NCBI RefSeq assembly: GCF_001005315.1
Contig: NZ_LBMG01000023.1
Span: forward strand, 1-64,000
Reading direction: 5' to 3'
DNA from: Kordia jejudonensis
GTDB lineage: Bacteria; Bacteroidota; Bacteroidia; Flavobacteriales; Flavobacteriaceae
Length of the DNA: 64,000 nucleotides
In this document: one piece after another, positions 19,348 through 29,994 of the stretch
How the letters are laid out: the number at the start of each line of letters is the position of its first letter
Position numbering within the stretch: position 1 is the first letter of the stretch
Program-made: the position numbers and the translations under genes
The notes under the pieces: generated by a model
What the model was told of the DNA's origin: nothing
The model's input: the letters and a program-made list of their open reading frames with translations, nothing else
Database searches by the model: none

Positions 19348-19355
19348 CAAAAATA
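19348..19355 (-). promoter_or_regulatory. -7 box for the Gfo/Idh operon
   Basis: TATTTTTG on the minus strand fits TAnnTTTG and ends 17 bases before the ATG at 19330. This supports the ATG start over the GTG that overlaps the box. Confidence 0.45.
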
Positions 19356-19402
19356 ATTTATTTTTTGAAAACCTTCGGGATATCCGTAATATTTATTATT
19401 TT

Positions 19403-19450
19403 GATTGAAAGATTGAAAGATTGAAAGATTGAAAGATTGAAAGATTGAAA
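19403..19450. repeat. six perfect copies of GATTGAAA
   Basis: An uninterrupted 48-base array of the octamer GATTGAAA, followed by diverged TTCAAATTCAATTTC words. Two to three copies of the same octamer occur independently at 38968-38990. Confidence 0.9.
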
Positions 19451-19591
19451 GTTCAAATTCAATTTCAATTTCAGTTCAAAGTTCAATGTTGTAAACAAAT
19501 CAACAATCGTACATCGTGAATCAAATCACTTCGCAGTCAGGAAGTTGAGTTTTTCCAGAATTATTTTTATTAATAGATAAAAAATACGCTT

Positions 19592-19605: not shown

Positions 19606-20247
19606 ATGAAAGACACGTTTAAACATAGAGGAATGCGAAATCAGCTAGCACAAGTGGTTGCTGACAAAGGAATTACAGATGAAAATGTCCTAAATGGAAT
19701 TCGAAACATTCCACGTCATTTATTTATGGATTCTAGCTTTGAAGCACATGCGTATCAAGACAAAGCGTTTCCTATTGGCGCCGATCAAACCATTTCGCAA
19801 CCGTATACAGTAGCTTTTCAAACTGAATTATTAGAAATTACAAAAGGATCAAAAATTCTTGAAATCGGTACAGGAAGCGGTTACCAAACTGCCATGTTAC
19901 TCGAACTTGGCGCAAAAGTATACAGCATAGAACGACAAAAAGAATTATTTAAGCGTACGAGTTTATTCTTGCCAAAATTGGGCTATCGTCCAAAACGACT
20001 CATCTTTGGAGACGGTTACAAAGGATTGCCCGAAGAAGCACCATTTGATGGAATTGTAGTAACGGCTGGCGCTCCATTTGTACCAAAACCGTTACTTTCA
20101 CAACTAAAAATAGGAGGAAAGCTGGTCATTCCTGTGGGCGATACTTCACAAATTATGACACTTTTCGTAAGAACATCTGAAAAAGAATTTACCAAAAAAG
20201 AATTTGGCAAATTTCGTTTTGTGCCAATGTTAGAAGATAAAAACTAA
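19606..20247 (+). CDS. pcm: protein-L-isoaspartate O-methyltransferase
   Basis: Repairs proteins by SAM-dependent methylation of isoaspartyl residues. Of 213 residues, the PCMT signature is clear: the substrate loop AFPIGADQTISQPYTVAFQ (about 56-74), SAM motif I ILEIGTGSGYQTAML (85-99), the Glu in VYSIERQ, and FGDGYKGLPEEAPFDGIVVTAG. Length is normal for bacteria. It is a single gene between a divergent oxidoreductase and the downstream megasynthase, about 196 bases away. Confidence 0.95.
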   Translation: MKDTFKHRGMRNQLAQVVADKGITDENVLNGIRNIPRHLFMDSSFEAHAYQDKAFPIGADQTISQPYTVAFQTELLEITKGSKILEIGTGSGYQTAMLLELGAKVYSIERQKELFKRTSLFLPKLGYRPKRLIFGDGYKGLPEEAPFDGIVVTAGAPFVPKPLLSQLKIGGKLVIPVGDTSQIMTLFVRTSEKEFTKKEFGKFRFVPMLEDKN

Positions 20248-20443: not shown

Positions 20444-23400
20444 ATGGAGACAGTAACTCAAAGCATTGAGGATATCTCAGCTACAACAATTTGTGGACTT
20501 ATTAAAGTGCAAATGCTAACACATCCTGATCGGATAGCAATTGTGGATGGAAAAATTAATATTGACTACAAACGTTTGCTTGCCAAAGCGAATCAAGTTG
20601 CTGGTGCGCTTCAACATCGTAAGATTCCAAAAGGATCGTTAATTGGTGTTTGCATGCATCGTTCATGGGAATTAGTAGCGACATTAATTGGCGTTATGCA
20701 AGCTGGTTGCGCGTATGTTCCATTAGATCCTACCTATCCGAAAGATCGTATCAAATACATGCTAGAAGATTCTAAAGCGAAAGCGGCAGTTGTATCCGAT
20801 GGAACGACTGCGAATTTGTGTGCAGGAGTTGAAAATGTAGTGTGGATTGATGCACTTGGAGATCATTCGGATGAAAATATACACGCTTCAAAAAACGAAT
20901 TAGCGTATGTTATTTATACTTCAGGTTCTACAGGAAAACCAAAAGGTGTAGCTGTTGAACATAAAAATATAGTAGCCATGCGGGCATCTGTTCGGCAAAT
21001 GTTTAGCGATAAAGAATTGAACGGAATGCTCGCTGCTGCTTCGGTTTGTTTTGATACTTCGGTAATGGAAATTATGGGAACACTTTCGCTAGGGGGAAAG
21101 ATAATATTAGTTCAAAATGCATTAGAATTAACTAAAATTCCCGCATTAGATCAAGTACGAACCTTTGTGATGGTTCCGTCGTCTGTTCAAGCATTATTGG
21201 CAACAGAAACATTGCCCAAAAATATAAAATGTGTCGTTTTTGGAGGAGAAGCTTTAAAACGATCGTTAGTTGAGCAAGTGTATGCGCACGATTCTGTAGA
21301 ACGCGTATTAAACGCATACGGACCAACGGAAGACACTGTATATTCTACTATTTCAGAAGTGTCGAGAGATACAAAAATAGTAACGATAGGAAAATCTGTT
21401 CTAAACTCACGAGCTTATATTTTAAACGAAAATCTTCAACCAGTTTCCAATGGCGATGCTGGCGAATTGCACTTAGCGGGAACAAAACTGGCACGCGGTT
21501 ATTTGTATGATGAAGCAAAAACAAACGAACGTTTTATAGAAATTGAACCTACTGAAGCCATTCCTGATCGCAGATTATATAAAACGGGCGATTTATGTCG
21601 TTGGGCAGAAAATGGAGAAATTGAATTTTTAGGAAGAGTCGATCAGCAAGTAAAAATACGAGGTTTCCGCATTGAACTTGAAGAAATAGAATCTACACTT
21701 GAAACCATGGAAGGCATTCATGCTGTTGCGGCCGCTGCTGTTGAAGGCGGAATTAGGCAAAAAATGTTATTGCTTTATGTGGTTAAAAAAGATGATTCTA
21801 TCACCACAGAGCACATAAAATCATACATCGCTGCACGTTTGCCAAAGTACATGATTCCACAAGTTGTAAAGTATTTGGACGAATTGCCATTGTTGCCAAA
21901 TGATAAGCTCGATCGAAAGAAACTCATGCAATTGGCGCAAAAATCATCATCCAAAGAAACGACAACGGAAAATCTTTTGGGACAATTTAAAAGCTCAAAT
22001 GAAAGCTTAAAAGAAGCCGTCTTGGAAACGATTCAACGTGAAGTTGCCACCATTATGAATATTGATGATTCAAAAACGATTTTGCCGAATCAACCTTTTG
22101 ACGAACATGGACTCGATTCGTTGTCTACGTTAGAATTTAGCAGTAGACTTTCTAAATCATTAGGAAAAAAAATAACCGCGCCAATTATTCTTAGACATCC
22201 AACACCAAATGCTTTGACAAATTATGTCGTAGATATTACAGAAAATGGAGGAGAAGTTGTCGAAAATGCATCTTGTAAGGTGTTTAGTGATACATTGGCG
22301 AAGTTTCAATTTGACATTCAATCGAGTTTTCCAACGTTTCAAGCAGCAAATGCAACGGCTTGGAGTGCAGATGATAAAAGTAAGCTTGTGCAAGAAGTAT
22401 TGCGTATGGTAAATGACAATCGTAGAAATCCGTATGGGAAAGTATTACGCACAGGAAGTGCCGCTACAGGAGTTGTGGGCGATGCGTTTAATGACGAAGA
22501 ACAAGAAGCAATTATTTGGTCAACAAACTTGTATTTTGGACTCAACAGAGATGATAGAGTAATTAAAGAAGCAACGTTGGCACTAGAAAAATTTGGAACA
22601 GGCATGGGGATTTCGGCGTCTGCATCTGGAATGACGAATCAGCATGTAGCTTTTGAAAAAGAATTTGCAGATTTGGTCGGAAAAGAAGACGCTTGCTTAT
22701 TTCCTACTGGCTATACGGCAAATGTAGGTGCGATTTCTGGAATTCTTGGAAAAAATGATGTCGTTGTCATCGATCAACTTTGTCATGCTTCTATTGTAGA
22801 TGGTGCGCGTTTGAGTGGTGCCGAAATACGAACATTTAAACATAATGATGCCAAAGATTTAGAAACCGTATTACAATCGGAAGTGTCTCCATATCGTACA
22901 GTTTTAGTCGTGTTGGAAAGTGTATACAGTATGGGCGAAGGAACAGCGCCAGTTGCGGAAATTGTAAAAATGGCAAAAAAATACAACGCATTGACTTTTG
23001 TTGACGAAGCGCATTCTTTTGGTTTTTATGGAAAAAATGGTGCTGGAATTTGTGCCGCGCAAGGTGCTACCGAAAATGTAGATTTTTTAATGACAACACT
23101 CAGCAAAGCGTTGGGAAGTATTGGCGGAATTATTGCCGCAAGTCGTGAACATATTGGTTTGTTAAAAGCATCATCAAGAGCGTACATATTTCAGGCGTCT
23201 ATCAGTCCTGCGGATATTGCTGCTGCGTTGACTTCCTTGCGATTGCTTCGTGCCGATGAAAAATTGCGCGAACAGTTGTGGGACAGAACGCGATACATGC
23301 GTCGACGATTTGAAGAAGCTGGATATGATTTAGGCACAGGAGACGGACCAATTATTACACCACATTTTGGCGATAAAGACAAATTGTATGCGATTGTACA

Positions 23401-24007
23401 GAGTTTATATAAACGTGGTGTACAAACTTTGGCGGTAACGTATCCGATTGTGGAAATTGGTCGTGGACGTTTACGATTTATCTGTTCTGCGGCGCATACG
23501 CGAAAAGATATTGATAAAACGGTTGAAGCACTTATTGAAGCCGAACGCGAAGTAGATGCACAAATGGTAATTACACAAAAAGAACAGAAAAAGGAAAGTG
23601 TTTCGAATGAAGCGTTACAAGAATGGGCAACTACTTTTACTTCTTATATAAAGCATTGGTTGACACAAATCACGGGCGCTACGCCAAACCTTATGATTTC
23701 TGTACGAAGTTCTGATGACAAGAATCCAATTAGAATAGTCATAAATGACGGCGTGTGTACACAAACTGATCAGGTCGTTTCAGGATTACCTTCTTGTGCT
23801 GTATGTGTTGAAAATAAAGAAGCGTTAATTGCTATACAATCGTGTGATATGCAAGCGATATTGAATCATATTTCTAACGGAAATTTTGTGCTAAACGGAC
23901 AAGTGGAAGCTTTTATTTGGCTTTTTGCACGATTGGTAGACTTTCAAAAAGTGATGCAAGCAAGTTCAAATTATACACAGAAGGAATCAGAAGAAGTGAT
24001 TGTTTAA
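20444..24007 (+). CDS. adenylation / carrier / alpha-oxoamine synthase megasynthase
   Basis: A 1187-residue biosynthetic enzyme. An NRPS adenylation domain covers about 1-500: YTSGSTGKPKG (158-168), AYGPTE (291-296), YKTGDL (379-384), GRVDQQVKIRGFR (397-409) and the A10 Lys488 in PNDKLDR; Asp204 in CFDTSV corresponds to the Asp that binds the alpha-amino group in amino-acid-activating domains. A carrier domain at about 525-600 has Ser559 in GLDSL. A PLP alpha-oxoamine synthase (about 645-1050) has LFPTGYTAN, His781, VDEAHSFG (Asp854) and Lys888 in TLSKALG. The last 120 residues may be an SCP2-like lipid-binding fold (low confidence). No condensation or thioesterase domain is present. It likely loads an acyl or aminoacyl unit and condenses it with an amino acid to a ketone; the product is unknown. 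Confidence 0.9.
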   Translation: METVTQSIEDISATTICGLIKVQMLTHPDRIAIVDGKINIDYKRLLAKANQVAGALQHRKIPKGSLIGVCMHRSWELVATLIGVMQAGCAYVPLDPTYPKDRIKYMLEDSKAKAAVVSDGTTANLCAGVENVVWIDALGDHSDENIHASKNELAYVIYTSGSTGKPKGVAVEHKNIVAMRASVRQMFSDKELNGMLAAASVCFDTSVMEIMGTLSLGGKIILVQNALELTKIPALDQVRTFVMVPSSVQALLATETLPKNIKCVVFGGEALKRSLVEQVYAHDSVERVLNAYGPTEDTVYSTISEVSRDTKIVTIGKSVLNSRAYILNENLQPVSNGDAGELHLAGTKLARGYLYDEAKTNERFIEIEPTEAIPDRRLYKTGDLCRWAENGEIEFLGRVDQQVKIRGFRIELEEIESTLETMEGIHAVAAAAVEGGIRQKMLLLYVVKKDDSITTEHIKSYIAARLPKYMIPQVVKYLDELPLLPNDKLDRKKLMQLAQKSSSKETTTENLLGQFKSSNESLKEAVLETIQREVATIMNIDDSKTILPNQPFDEHGLDSLSTLEFSSRLSKSLGKKITAPIILRHPTPNALTNYVVDITENGGEVVENASCKVFSDTLAKFQFDIQSSFPTFQAANATAWSADDKSKLVQEVLRMVNDNRRNPYGKVLRTGSAATGVVGDAFNDEEQEAIIWSTNLYFGLNRDDRVIKEATLALEKFGTGMGISASASGMTNQHVAFEKEFADLVGKEDACLFPTGYTANVGAISGILGKNDVVVIDQLCHASIVDGARLSGAEIRTFKHNDAKDLETVLQSEVSPYRTVLVVLESVYSMGEGTAPVAEIVKMAKKYNALTFVDEAHSFGFYGKNGAGICAAQGATENVDFLMTTLSKALGSIGGIIAASREHIGLLKASSRAYIFQASISPADIAAALTSLRLLRADEKLREQLWDRTRYMRRRFEEAGYDLGTGDGPIITPHFGDKDKLYAIVQSLYKRGVQTLAVTYPIVEIGRGRLRFICSAAHTRKDIDKTVEALIEAEREVDAQMVITQKEQKKESVSNEALQEWATTFTSYIKHWLTQITGATPNLMISVRSSDDKNPIRIVINDGVCTQTDQVVSGLPSCAVCVENKEALIAIQSCDMQAILNHISNGNFVLNGQVEAFIWLFARLVDFQKVMQASSNYTQKESEEVIV

Positions 24008-24192: not shown

Positions 24193-24975
24193 TTATTTCA
24201 TCAATTCAATTTGATACTTTGTAGCATCAAAAGCCATTTGTAAACCTCTTAGGTTATACTCAGATTTATTTTGTTGAAATAATGTATTCAAGTATTCCGT
24301 TTGCTTACTAATATTGTCATTTTCTCTTTTAAAGATTTGGTATTTTAAGAGAATTAAATTCGCCATAATTTTATCCGAAATATTTATATCAGTTTGATTT
24401 AAATACGCTTCTATCGTACTTTTTATCTTGGAATCATTTTCAGGTAGTTCATCGAATAGATACGCATTTGCCAAGTCAGATTTATTCATACTAGCGTAAT
24501 CATTCTGATTGGACATATCTTTTCGGTAAGTCATTTTATTTGCATTTAGAAAATACCATCTAGTGTAAGAATCATTTTCCATTTTAATTTCTTTTTCAAA
24601 CTTCTTTTTCTTTACACTCCAGTTTGTGAAAGCAATTAAAAGTTCAGTTTCATCATCTTTCTTTAAAATAGCAAATCGAATCAAGTAATTTCTTTTTCCG
24701 GGCTTTTCAATTTCAATATCCAACTTATTTTCTACTGAAACATATTTTTTCAGCGCTTTTAGAATAGCGGAGACCTCTTTATGACTTGCTTCTGGAAATA
24801 GATTTTCTCTTAAAAATAAATCAATGTACAGATAATGAGTCAAATAAAAATCATCCATTTTAAGATAATTCGCTTCTGTCAAATGATCTGTTTTAATGTT
24901 GATTTTATCAGATTGTGCGTGCCCAAAATTTGTGAATAAAGCTAAAAGTAGAAGTGTAATTAATTTTCGGTTCAT
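24193..24975 (-). CDS. exported protein of unknown function (cassette gene)
   Basis: Not recognised. It has 260 residues with a signal peptide ending NFGHAQ. The mature part is rich in Lys, Asn and Asp and looks mainly helical in its second half, with alternating Leu/Asn stretches. It is the last gene of the minus-strand array of unrelated genes (24193-33330) and has no partner in the same operon. The 166-base gap upstream of it holds a single GTTAGC box near 25110 rather than a full palindrome. Confidence 0.6.
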   Translation of the reverse strand: MNRKLITLLLLALFTNFGHAQSDKINIKTDHLTEANYLKMDDFYLTHYLYIDLFLRENLFPEASHKEVSAILKALKKYVSVENKLDIEIEKPGKRNYLIRFAILKKDDETELLIAFTNWSVKKKKFEKEIKMENDSYTRWYFLNANKMTYRKDMSNQNDYASMNKSDLANAYLFDELPENDSKIKSTIEAYLNQTDINISDKIMANLILLKYQIFKRENDNISKQTEYLNTLFQQNKSEYNLRGLQMAFDATKYQIELMK

Positions 24976-28296: not shown

Positions 28297-28352
28297 ATAT
28301 AACAAACGTCGCTGACCCAAAGGGCAGCTATGTTTTGTTATATAGTGTTAGC
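28297..28352. repeat. compact attC-like palindrome, ATATAACAAAC type
   Basis: Arm ATATAACAAACGTCGCTGAC (from 28297) pairs with GGGCAGCTATGTTTTGTTATAT (28322-28343) around AAA; about 17 of 22 positions pair. GTTAGC follows at 28347-28352, and the stop codon of the 28348-29994 gene (TAA) lies inside this GCTAAC box on the minus strand. The size and the AACAAACG/GTTATA ends resemble Vibrio-type attC sites. Confidence 0.65.
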
Positions 28353-29994
28353 TGCTAGCTTTGTATGTTAATGTTCCGGTAATCTTTTCAGGTTCATTTT
28401 TACAAGTGATTTCATAGTCAATTGTAAAATCAGTATGACTTTTTACAAGAATATAAGAAGGAAAAGCCATAGTTTCATTTGTGTTTAGTTCTTTAAAATA
28501 GCATTCGATTATAGTTTGATTTGGTTTGTCATAGTAATAATTATAGTCAAAATAATAATTTAACATTGAGCGAAATTTATCTTCTTCCTGTCCTTTTCGC
28601 TCATAACCAAACATACCAAAGTTTATAAATTGAGGTATTATATTTCTTGGGTTATATTCATTAACGACACTATTTTGATTCTGTTTTAAGCTATTAAATA
28701 AAAAGCTATTATCTGAGTTCAAATCTTCTATATTTTGAAACATTTTTGGAATAGGAACTTTTTTTGATTTAATAACTTTTACATTTTCAGGAATTGAAAG
28801 TTGAACTCTGATTTCTTCGTTATGCTGTTTTCCTGTATTTGTGATGACAATTGGTAATAAAGAAAGTTTCGATAATTTTTTCCAAAAGTCCATTAAATCA
28901 AGTAATTCATTAATTTTCCAGTAAAAATCCTTATATAATTTTTTCTTTTCCTTCTCTATTTCACTGCCTATTAAGGTTGTTTTATTTGGAGTTAGTGGAA
29001 ATCCTATACTCATTGTTTTGGTTTCTTTAAGTTCTCCAAAATTGAAGAACTCTTTTTCTGGTTCTACATTTAGAAGTTTTTTTAGTCCTCTAGTAATTAA
29101 TTTAATCTCATAATTGCTTATAACAACGGGTTCATTACTATACTCAAATGAACTTTTTAAAGTAGAGAATGTACTGAAATCATTTATATCAAACTCTTTC
29201 TCAAAAGTTTTTACTTTAAAATCGTACTTGCTAATTTTCTCAAACAATTCTTTTACCTTTTGTTTTTTGCTAGAAAAGAGGTTTGAATTTTTGATATCAG
29301 CGATTTTAATATCTGATATTATTTTTTTTGAAAATACTTTGTTATGGTAGAATTGAAGTTGGAAGTTCGCTTTGTTTAAGGTTACCTGCTCCGAATAGTT
29401 ATATAAAATCCAGTCGAGTAAATGACTCTCAAATTCATTTTTATGAACGATCTTTCCTAAAGTTGAAATTTTGATTATTTGATTTACCATTCCATTGGCA
29501 ATCAATTTTTTAGTTGGGTAGTCCGTTAAAATATCTTTTGAGAAAAAGAATTTGTCAATACCCGCAACTAATGCATCCTCTAGAGTTTCAATATTATTCG
29601 GTTCAAAGTAAACTCTTAACCTATTTTTTATTTTATGTAGGCTTTTAAATTTTTCTGGAAATTCTGTTTCTTGTTTGTCCTTTATTGAGTTGAATAACAA
29701 TTTTGTTGAGTGAGAGGAATTCCCAACTAAATAAATGGAATAGATTTTAGCGGCGCTATAATCTAAAGTAAGATTTTGAAGCCACTGGAAAATATCATTT
29801 GTTCTAAAATTATTTATTGACGACTTCACTTGACTTATTTCCATACTTTGGTCGGGAAATGTCCATATAATGTCAACTTTATCGTAATCTGTTTTAGGTT
29901 CAACGCAAATTGAATTCCAATCACCATTCAAAGATTTTAAGACAGCAATTAGCGATTGAAATAAATATCCTCTAATACTTTCTTGTCCACTCAT
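28348..29994 (-). CDS. putative DUF4297-like dsDNA nuclease (cassette gene, possible defence effector)
   Basis: A 548-residue soluble protein. Its N-terminus, SIRGYLFQSLIAVLKSLN, then CVEPKTDYDKVDIIW and the ISQVKSS motif (about residues 10-60), has the Gly-x-x-x-Gln / Asp-x-x-Glu-x-Lys-like order of Cap4/DUF4297 nucleases, with D and QVK as candidate active-site residues. The remaining 480 residues are not recognised; they contain helical stretches and a beta-rich C-terminus. No cyclic-nucleotide synthase or other Cap protein is adjacent, so a CBASS role is not supported. An anti-phage nuclease is an inference only. Its stop codon lies in the GCTAAC box of the downstream palindrome, and its ATG is 18 bases from the GCTAAC/GTTAGC arm at 30012. 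Confidence 0.5.
   Translation of the reverse strand: MSGQESIRGYLFQSLIAVLKSLNGDWNSICVEPKTDYDKVDIIWTFPDQSMEISQVKSSINNFRTNDIFQWLQNLTLDYSAAKIYSIYLVGNSSHSTKLLFNSIKDKQETEFPEKFKSLHKIKNRLRVYFEPNNIETLEDALVAGIDKFFFSKDILTDYPTKKLIANGMVNQIIKISTLGKIVHKNEFESHLLDWILYNYSEQVTLNKANFQLQFYHNKVFSKKIISDIKIADIKNSNLFSSKKQKVKELFEKISKYDFKVKTFEKEFDINDFSTFSTLKSSFEYSNEPVVISNYEIKLITRGLKKLLNVEPEKEFFNFGELKETKTMSIGFPLTPNKTTLIGSEIEKEKKKLYKDFYWKINELLDLMDFWKKLSKLSLLPIVITNTGKQHNEEIRVQLSIPENVKVIKSKKVPIPKMFQNIEDLNSDNSFLFNSLKQNQNSVVNEYNPRNIIPQFINFGMFGYERKGQEEDKFRSMLNYYFDYNYYYDKPNQTIIECYFKELNTNETMAFPSYILVKSHTDFTIDYEITCKNEPEKITGTLTYKASS

Follow-up and report, generated by a model that had tools for sequence, protein, structure and literature searches.

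This study identifies in Kordia jejudonensis a single gene whose product joins, in one chain, an amino-acid adenylation (A) domain, a carrier domain and a complete alpha-oxoamine synthase (AOS) domain that depends on pyridoxal phosphate (PLP), followed by a tail with a predicted SCP2-like fold. The gene is an open reading frame (ORF) with an ATG start at 20444-24007 on the forward strand of the 64,000-nucleotide stretch that we analysed (contig NZ_LBMG01000023.1, positions 1 to 64,000; hereafter the window). It encodes 1187 amino acids and has 18 full-length orthologues elsewhere, nine in Kordia and nine in Microbulbifer. The best explanation, which we consider probable although far from certain, is that this protein is a self-contained, single-chain enzyme that forms a carbon-carbon bond, condensing a carrier-bound aminoacyl group with a free amino acid to give an alpha-amino ketone and CO2. 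We also put forward, tentatively, a bolder proposal that may well prove wrong: the protein would belong to a new enzyme family in which one chain produces alpha,alpha'-diamino ketones through a decarboxylative Claisen condensation and shelters the unstable product in a built-in SCP2-like domain, and the gene would have undergone horizontal transfer between Kordia and one clade of Microbulbifer. If this is so, one gene would suffice to make diamino ketones and pyrazines, with two amino acids joined by a carbon-carbon bond instead of a peptide bond.

Domain organization and conserved residues

Pfam-A places AMP-binding (PF00501) at residues 23-354 (2e-73), AMP-binding_C (PF13193) at 414-488, PP-binding (PF00550) at 529-595 and Aminotran_1_2 (PF00155) at 690-1030 (3.1e-46), in this order; apart from these, only two PLP-superfamily models exceed their cut-offs, both on the AOS stretch. 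The A-domain core (20510-21505; this and all following features of the gene lie on the forward strand) is recognized as an amino-acid adenylation domain by TIGR01733, with 382 bits against a curated cut-off of 317.4. The C-terminal subdomain (21683-21907; 33.6 bits, cut-off 24.5) includes Lys488, which we take to be the A10 lysine. The carrier domain (22028-22228; 44.1 bits, cut-off 20.8) has its predicted phosphopantetheine site, Ser559, in the motif GLDSL (codon 22118-22120). The AOS domain covers approximately residues 641-1040 (22364-23563), and its PLP Schiff-base lysine, Lys888 (codon 23105-23107), lies in TLSKAL, which aligns with TFSKSL of serine palmitoyltransferases (SPTs). Condensation, thioesterase and reductase families give no match in the protein in Pfam-A at E up to 1, so that the condensation domain required for an elongating module of a non-ribosomal peptide synthetase (NRPS) is not found. 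This domain order, without condensation or release domains, is what an earlier, sequence-only reading of this DNA had proposed. That reading had also named an amino-acid Asp in the A domain and had made its case depend on the presence in alignments of Ser559 and Lys888; both are correctly numbered, and these predictions are borne out by all 19 family members.

Sequence alignments of the 19 orthologues reveal that Asp204, Lys488, Ser559, His781, Asp854, His857, Lys888 and Arg1011 are invariant. Asp204 is the amino-acid Asp, Asp235 in the GrsA numbering. Lys888, Asp854, His781, His857 and Arg1011 all align with residues of SPT, which places the domain in the AOS superfamily; in SPT, His137, His212 and Arg366 are described as having PLP- and substrate-binding roles (Milano et al. 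2013, PMC3870968). The share of invariant columns differs among the parts of the protein: 235 of 395 (59%) in the AOS domain, 159 of 505 (31%) in the A domain, 8 of 81 (10%) in the carrier and 11 of 143 (8%) in the tail. The AOS domain thus has the highest share: of all the functions of the enzyme, its condensation chemistry is kept most strictly. We can rule out chance or a frameshift artefact as the origin of this reading frame, because the proteins share 57-70% identity over nearly their whole length in two phyla and internal stops are absent in all 19 places.

The closest solved relatives of the AOS domain by sequence are SPTs, the nearest being 3a2b (2.1e-68). However, its scores against curated cut-offs are 320 against 426 bits for BioF, 319 against 500 for SPT, 317 against 460 for KBL, 270 against 339 for ALAS and 200 against 428 for the CqsA-type model NF005526, and all five equivalog assignments were rejected. 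Since the BioF, SPT and KBL scores are nearly equal and none passes, this AOS belongs to no named equivalog. In addition, the Arg of the S-R-xxx-G loop is replaced by Ala in all 19 family members, whereas it is retained in 11 of the 14 stand-alone AOS proteins of the examined loci; this would be consistent with a different acyl donor.

The C-terminal SCP2-like domain

Another finding from this study concerns the C-terminal residues, for which the sequence-only reading had suggested a possible SCP2-like tail and had recommended structure prediction. Residues 1033-1187 give no Pfam match at E up to 10, the SCP2 profile PF02036 included. PF02036 also has no match in the whole K. jejudonensis genome at 0.01, and it matches in 6 of 14 control genomes. 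An AlphaFold2 model of the tail from five aligned sequences has a mean predicted local distance difference test (pLDDT) of 83.3, with at least 90 in 103 of the 155 residues and most of the core above 90. Foldseek returned nine matches to this model at E up to 0.001, all of them UbiJ-SCP2 or SCP2 structures (UbiJ-SCP2 at 1.2e-4), whose TM-scores, scaled to the query length, were 0.44-0.48. With VIA-align 2, 106-115 residues were aligned at Z 10.3 for 4uei (115 residues), 9.9 for 1ikt, human MFE-2 (109 residues), and 9.2 for 1pz4, and the SCP2 domains of alkylsulfatases scored about 7-9; in this program, models without a clear match often reach a best Z of 7 to 8. In a model of the full-length protein (mean pLDDT 44.4), the tail is again among the best parts, with block means of about 77-88, although this model was built from the same alignment rows. 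The tail is therefore confidently predicted, as a model, to have an SCP2 fold, at approximately residues 1054-1180 (23603-23983), like that of UbiJ, SCP-2 and the alkylsulfatase SCP2 domains, with which it shares 8-16% identity (ten best VIA-align rows). Such a domain would most likely bind a hydrophobic product, a partner or the membrane. We know of no SCP2-like domain in other AOS or NRPS proteins.

Proposed reaction

In the reaction that we propose, the A domain would use ATP to activate an alpha-amino acid, probably a hydrophobic one, as aminoacyl-AMP, and the aminoacyl group would be moved to the phosphopantetheine of Ser559. At the AOS domain, PLP (Lys888) would form an external aldimine with another, free amino acid bound by Arg1011, and the resulting carbanion would attack the aminoacyl thioester with loss of CO2. 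This condensation would both couple the two amino acids and free the product, with no need for a separate release domain. The product would be an alpha-amino ketone, and more precisely an alpha,alpha'-diamino ketone if the loaded unit retains its amino group, as is probably the case. Alpha,alpha'-diamino ketones are prone to dimerize or cyclize, and we conjecture that the C-terminal SCP2-like domain, which could hold a hydrophobic product or partner, shelters the product on the chain.

The choice of the loaded amino acid may be read from the pocket of the A domain. By motif reading and GrsA numbering, we take the pocket code of the window protein to be D-T-M-M-V-G-A-V-Y-K, in which Asp and Lys are the only charged residues; it has 5 of 10 positions in common with Ile- and Val-type codes, a weak resemblance. 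A hydrophobic amino acid is probably loaded. Pocket position 278 is Met in all ten Kordia members and Thr or Ser in all nine of Microbulbifer, three Microbulbifer members have Pro236 together with Val322, and two Kordia members have Phe at both 322 and 331.

Several observations weigh against this proposal. Six pocket positions (236, 239, 278, 299, 322 and 331) vary within the family, so that different members may load different amino acids, and the pocket code equals no A-domain code known to us. The architecture, the conservation of the catalytic residues and the distribution of the protein are observed and the fold of its tail is predicted, but the substrates, the sequence of the steps, the product and the role of the tail are inferred, and an SCP2 fold alone does not show lipid binding. 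The low pLDDT of the full-length model leaves the contacts between the domains unsupported. The loop Arg is also missing from 3 of the 14 stand-alone AOS proteins, where it is Ser, so that the replacement does not by itself establish that the donor is new. In the cited parts of Milano et al. (PMC3870968), moreover, the CoA-interacting residues (CoA, coenzyme A) are described as conserved in the group of AOS domains embedded in larger proteins, and the genes of this group as often lying beside NRPS or polyketide synthase (PKS) genes, unlike the window gene.

Relation to known systems

AOS enzymes are known mainly as users of acyl-CoA. A carrier-AOS fusion is present in SxtA of saxitoxin biosynthesis, which performs a decarboxylative condensation of a carrier-bound acyl group with an amino acid; SxtA differs in its methyltransferase/GNAT loading, its propionyl donor and its place in a large cluster. 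Carrier-bound donors are also used by three rhodobacterial SPTs, which prefer acyl-AcpR loaded by the dedicated synthetase AasR (PMC9386255) and so provide a precedent for a carrier-bound AOS donor in the window protein. The AasR/AcpR/SPT set of Caulobacter shares the logic proposed here: its adenylating enzyme and its carrier are both dedicated to the pathway, the first charging the second, and the acyl group on the carrier is then joined to an amino acid by an AOS (PMC9386255). However, the Caulobacter set consists of three proteins and uses a fatty acyl group, whereas the window protein combines an amino-acid-type A domain and an SCP2-like tail in one chain. PigH of prodigiosin biosynthesis, the only experimentally characterized member of the embedded AOS group according to Milano et al. 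(PMC3870968), contains two carriers together with a PLP domain for which decarboxylation of L-serine is predicted. Like the window protein it is a carrier-AOS fusion; unlike it, PigH belongs to a pigment cluster, and an A domain in its chain is not described in the cited text.

The A-carrier-AOS layout itself is already known since 2013, when Milano et al. (Table 2, PMC3870968) tabulated the A-CP-PLP2 proteins A1ZVW4 of Microscilla marina and A3ZWL3 of Blastopirellula marina with no cluster or product assigned there. Compared by domain layout alone, both have the same order of adenylation, carrier and Aminotran_1_2 domains. They differ in that the table gives no SCP2-like tail, although a Pfam scan would also miss the tail of the window protein. 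The Kordia algicida entry of the same table, A9ECY5, is a different protein with a Beta_elim_lyase domain. We found nothing about this enzyme or an AOS-SCP2 fusion in the listed titles and abstract openings of the open literature, which mostly excludes subscription journals, and the cited part of PMC11285056 has no mention of oxoamine or aminoketone.

Distribution and evolutionary history

Our first survey covered 60 genomes, namely the K. jejudonensis genome, ten others of the genus and 49 further ones. All ten carriers belong to Kordia, and the full-length protein is present in 10 of the 11 Kordia genomes, K. jejudonensis included (E up to 1e-150). In the sole non-carrier (G005), the matches are limited to NRPS A domains and stand-alone AOS proteins; its best match (L034, 35%) was rejected as an orthologue because a condensation domain follows, as judged by eye, which indicates an ordinary NRPS. 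Outside Kordia, 9 of 48 Microbulbifer genomes carry a full-length orthologue at 57-64% identity, that of Microbulbifer variabilis SaN7-12 being at 64%. An rpoB tree of 30 of these 48 genomes (the 9 carriers and 21 of the 39 others) unites the carriers in one clade with support of 100/99, so that a single acquisition in the genus suffices. In a tree of the AOS domain, the 19 family members form one group against 14 stand-alone AOS proteins (100/100); the Microbulbifer rows are grouped (83/99), the Kordia rows are not resolved, and the program cautions that the outgroup branches are long. The G+C content of the gene lies above that of its flanks in all ten Kordia loci and in 7 of the 9 Microbulbifer loci. 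Presence in 10 of the 11 Kordia genomes and in one Microbulbifer clade points to a useful metabolite. Kordia is a genus that includes an algicidal species.

The A-carrier-AOS fusion was not found in 394 other Bacteroidota (AOS profile at 1e-85, which gave four stand-alone AOS proteins; full protein at 1e-105) or in a further 273 genomes from the class to which Microbulbifer belongs, and among 397 other Pseudomonadota the one match was an A domain in a frame of 4516 residues. These were partial samples; the best two candidates of most genomes were scored in the full-protein search of Bacteroidota and in the search of Pseudomonadota, and at most four in the AOS-profile search, so that some distant fusions may have escaped notice. 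A plasmid search gave one match, in Nostoc, to the A and carrier parts only. A 4.3-kb contig filed under Dokdonia (CAKZKZ010000437.1) encodes residues 6-430 of the family at 73%, its A domain lying at the contig end; it is possibly a mis-binned Kordia contig.

Gene neighbourhood

The sequence-only reading had also noted that the gene is not next to other biosynthetic genes and had called for a comparison of neighbours in related genomes. We compared the ten Kordia and nine Microbulbifer loci over about 8 kb per side (less in L057, at a contig end) and found no recognizable cluster. None of the 296 other ORFs of at least 70 residues is NRPS-like when tested against eight NRPS reference stretches at 1e-4. 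Pfam finds no condensation or ketosynthase family among 30 neighbours from the other loci, 5 of which have no match at all; these 30 are transporters, regulators, dehydrogenases, peptidases, a helicase and members of other families or of none. The search for PKS genes relied on these scans, 37 with the seven window neighbours described below, and on the starts of gene families that are shared. Membership in a local cluster was thus rejected. The Kordia and Microbulbifer neighbourhoods, moreover, have no gene family in common except the enzyme itself. Because no cluster surrounds the gene, cluster-based mining may overlook it. Enzymes that occur at single loci include a class V aminotransferase (L059), a zinc alcohol dehydrogenase and a cyclopropane synthase operon (both L055) and a desaturase (L058), and none of them recurs in another locus.

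The earlier claim of isolation needs a qualification in Microbulbifer, where the enzyme gene lies in several contexts. In 5 of the 9 loci, within two of these contexts, its direct opposite-strand neighbour is a candidate partner, a TetA-like gene of the major facilitator superfamily (MFS), whose protein scores 125.5 bits against a cut-off of 475. One copy (L052:11688-12920) has homologues in seven further Microbulbifer genomes, so the protein (E up to 1e-60) occurs in 8 of the 9 carriers and in none of the 39 non-carriers; it was not found in the fragmented genome G745. Since the carriers form one clade, this co-occurrence amounts to about one event and gives no independent support. In three carriers the MFS gene lies at a separate locus, adjoining an acetolactate synthase gene, and the protein has no match in the 11 Kordia genomes at 1e-10.

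Alternative explanations

The same architecture could serve an NRPS line of its own genome in trans, as a release module that takes over a chain or supplies an amino ketone, with no autonomous pathway. Indeed, the other contigs of the K. jejudonensis genome contain more than 20 NRPS A-domain stretches (C1, C146, C156, C177, C183, C194, C199 and others), several in frames of 2000-4120 residues, and three Kordia orthologues (L010, L013 and L017) share a related N-terminal extension of 60-70 residues that could dock to a partner. However, the window protein lacks this extension, Pfam gives nothing above cut-off for it in the two of the three orthologues that were scanned, a condensation domain for accepting or passing a chain is not found by Pfam-A, no NRPS-like ORF lies beside the gene in any of the 19 loci and no neighbour is conserved between the two genera. 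We regard this explanation as unlikely. Less likely again is a lipid enzyme, in which the A domain would load a fatty or hydroxy acid, the AOS domain, like those of sphingolipid or sulfonolipid synthesis, would join the long-chain acyl group to an amino acid, and the tail would hold the acyl chain. The closeness to SPTs, the fatty acid that an SCP2 domain can hold (1pz4) and the dedicated synthetase-carrier-SPT set of Caulobacter (PMC9386255) all speak for it. On the other hand, the amino-acid Asp is retained in all 19 members and the amino-acid adenylation cut-off is passed, whereas fatty acyl ligase models score lower and stay below their cut-offs (the best listed at 197 against 476 bits), and the scores for the SPT equivalogs also fall short (319 of 500, 307 of 640 and 250 of 670 bits).

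The sequence-only reading had suggested that the enzyme might make a small amino ketone, lipid or signal molecule on its own. For the signal, the product would be a diffusible compound derived from an amino ketone, such as a dihydropyrazine or pyrazine after dimerization, with a role like that of CqsA-type autoinducers. Alpha-amino ketones dimerize spontaneously, the gene stands alone and is kept in nearly all Kordia genomes, and the exporter-like MFS gene adjoins it in five Microbulbifer loci. Against this, no neighbour family is common to both genera and thus no sensor, the CqsA-type model is not reached, and the idea is a conjecture about role. We consider it the least likely of the three, and favour the self-contained enzyme that joins two amino acids.

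Other features of the locus

No promoter or terminator signal above that of shuffled sequence was found around the gene, and a repeat scan, made without a shuffled control, gave no repeats close to the gene that bear on the enzyme. In the window, Pfam searches of seven neighbouring proteins identify pcm, a 3-hydroxyacyl-CoA dehydrogenase, a RidA-type (L-PSP) protein, a transglutaminase-like protein and an LRV protein, with two left without assignment. The upstream gene pcm (19606-20247; PF01135) ends 196 bases before the enzyme start, and downstream lies a convergent ORF with no assigned family (24193-24975). The same-strand upstream gene is pcm in 8 of the 10 Kordia loci, with a 331-residue DUF6438 ORF intervening in one and two small ORFs in another. 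In the remaining two genomes, G004 and G006, the enzyme gene is at a different site, adjoining a helicase-like protein of 1.6 kaa (thousand amino acids) as judged by eye. Between pcm and an ORF that ends at 19348, the 8-mer GAAAGATT is repeated in tandem about six times (19399-19454), possibly as a variable promoter element. In one Kordia genome, two adjacent caspase-domain (Peptidase_C14) proteins are encoded a few kb from the enzyme gene (L062:3817-5792). On the reverse strand of the window, 28348-29994 encodes a 548-residue protein that is a possible anti-phage defence effector: the PADLOC 'Effector' endonuclease model PDLC00735 recognizes its first 197 residues (9.1e-25), and Pfam finds nothing in it at 0.5.

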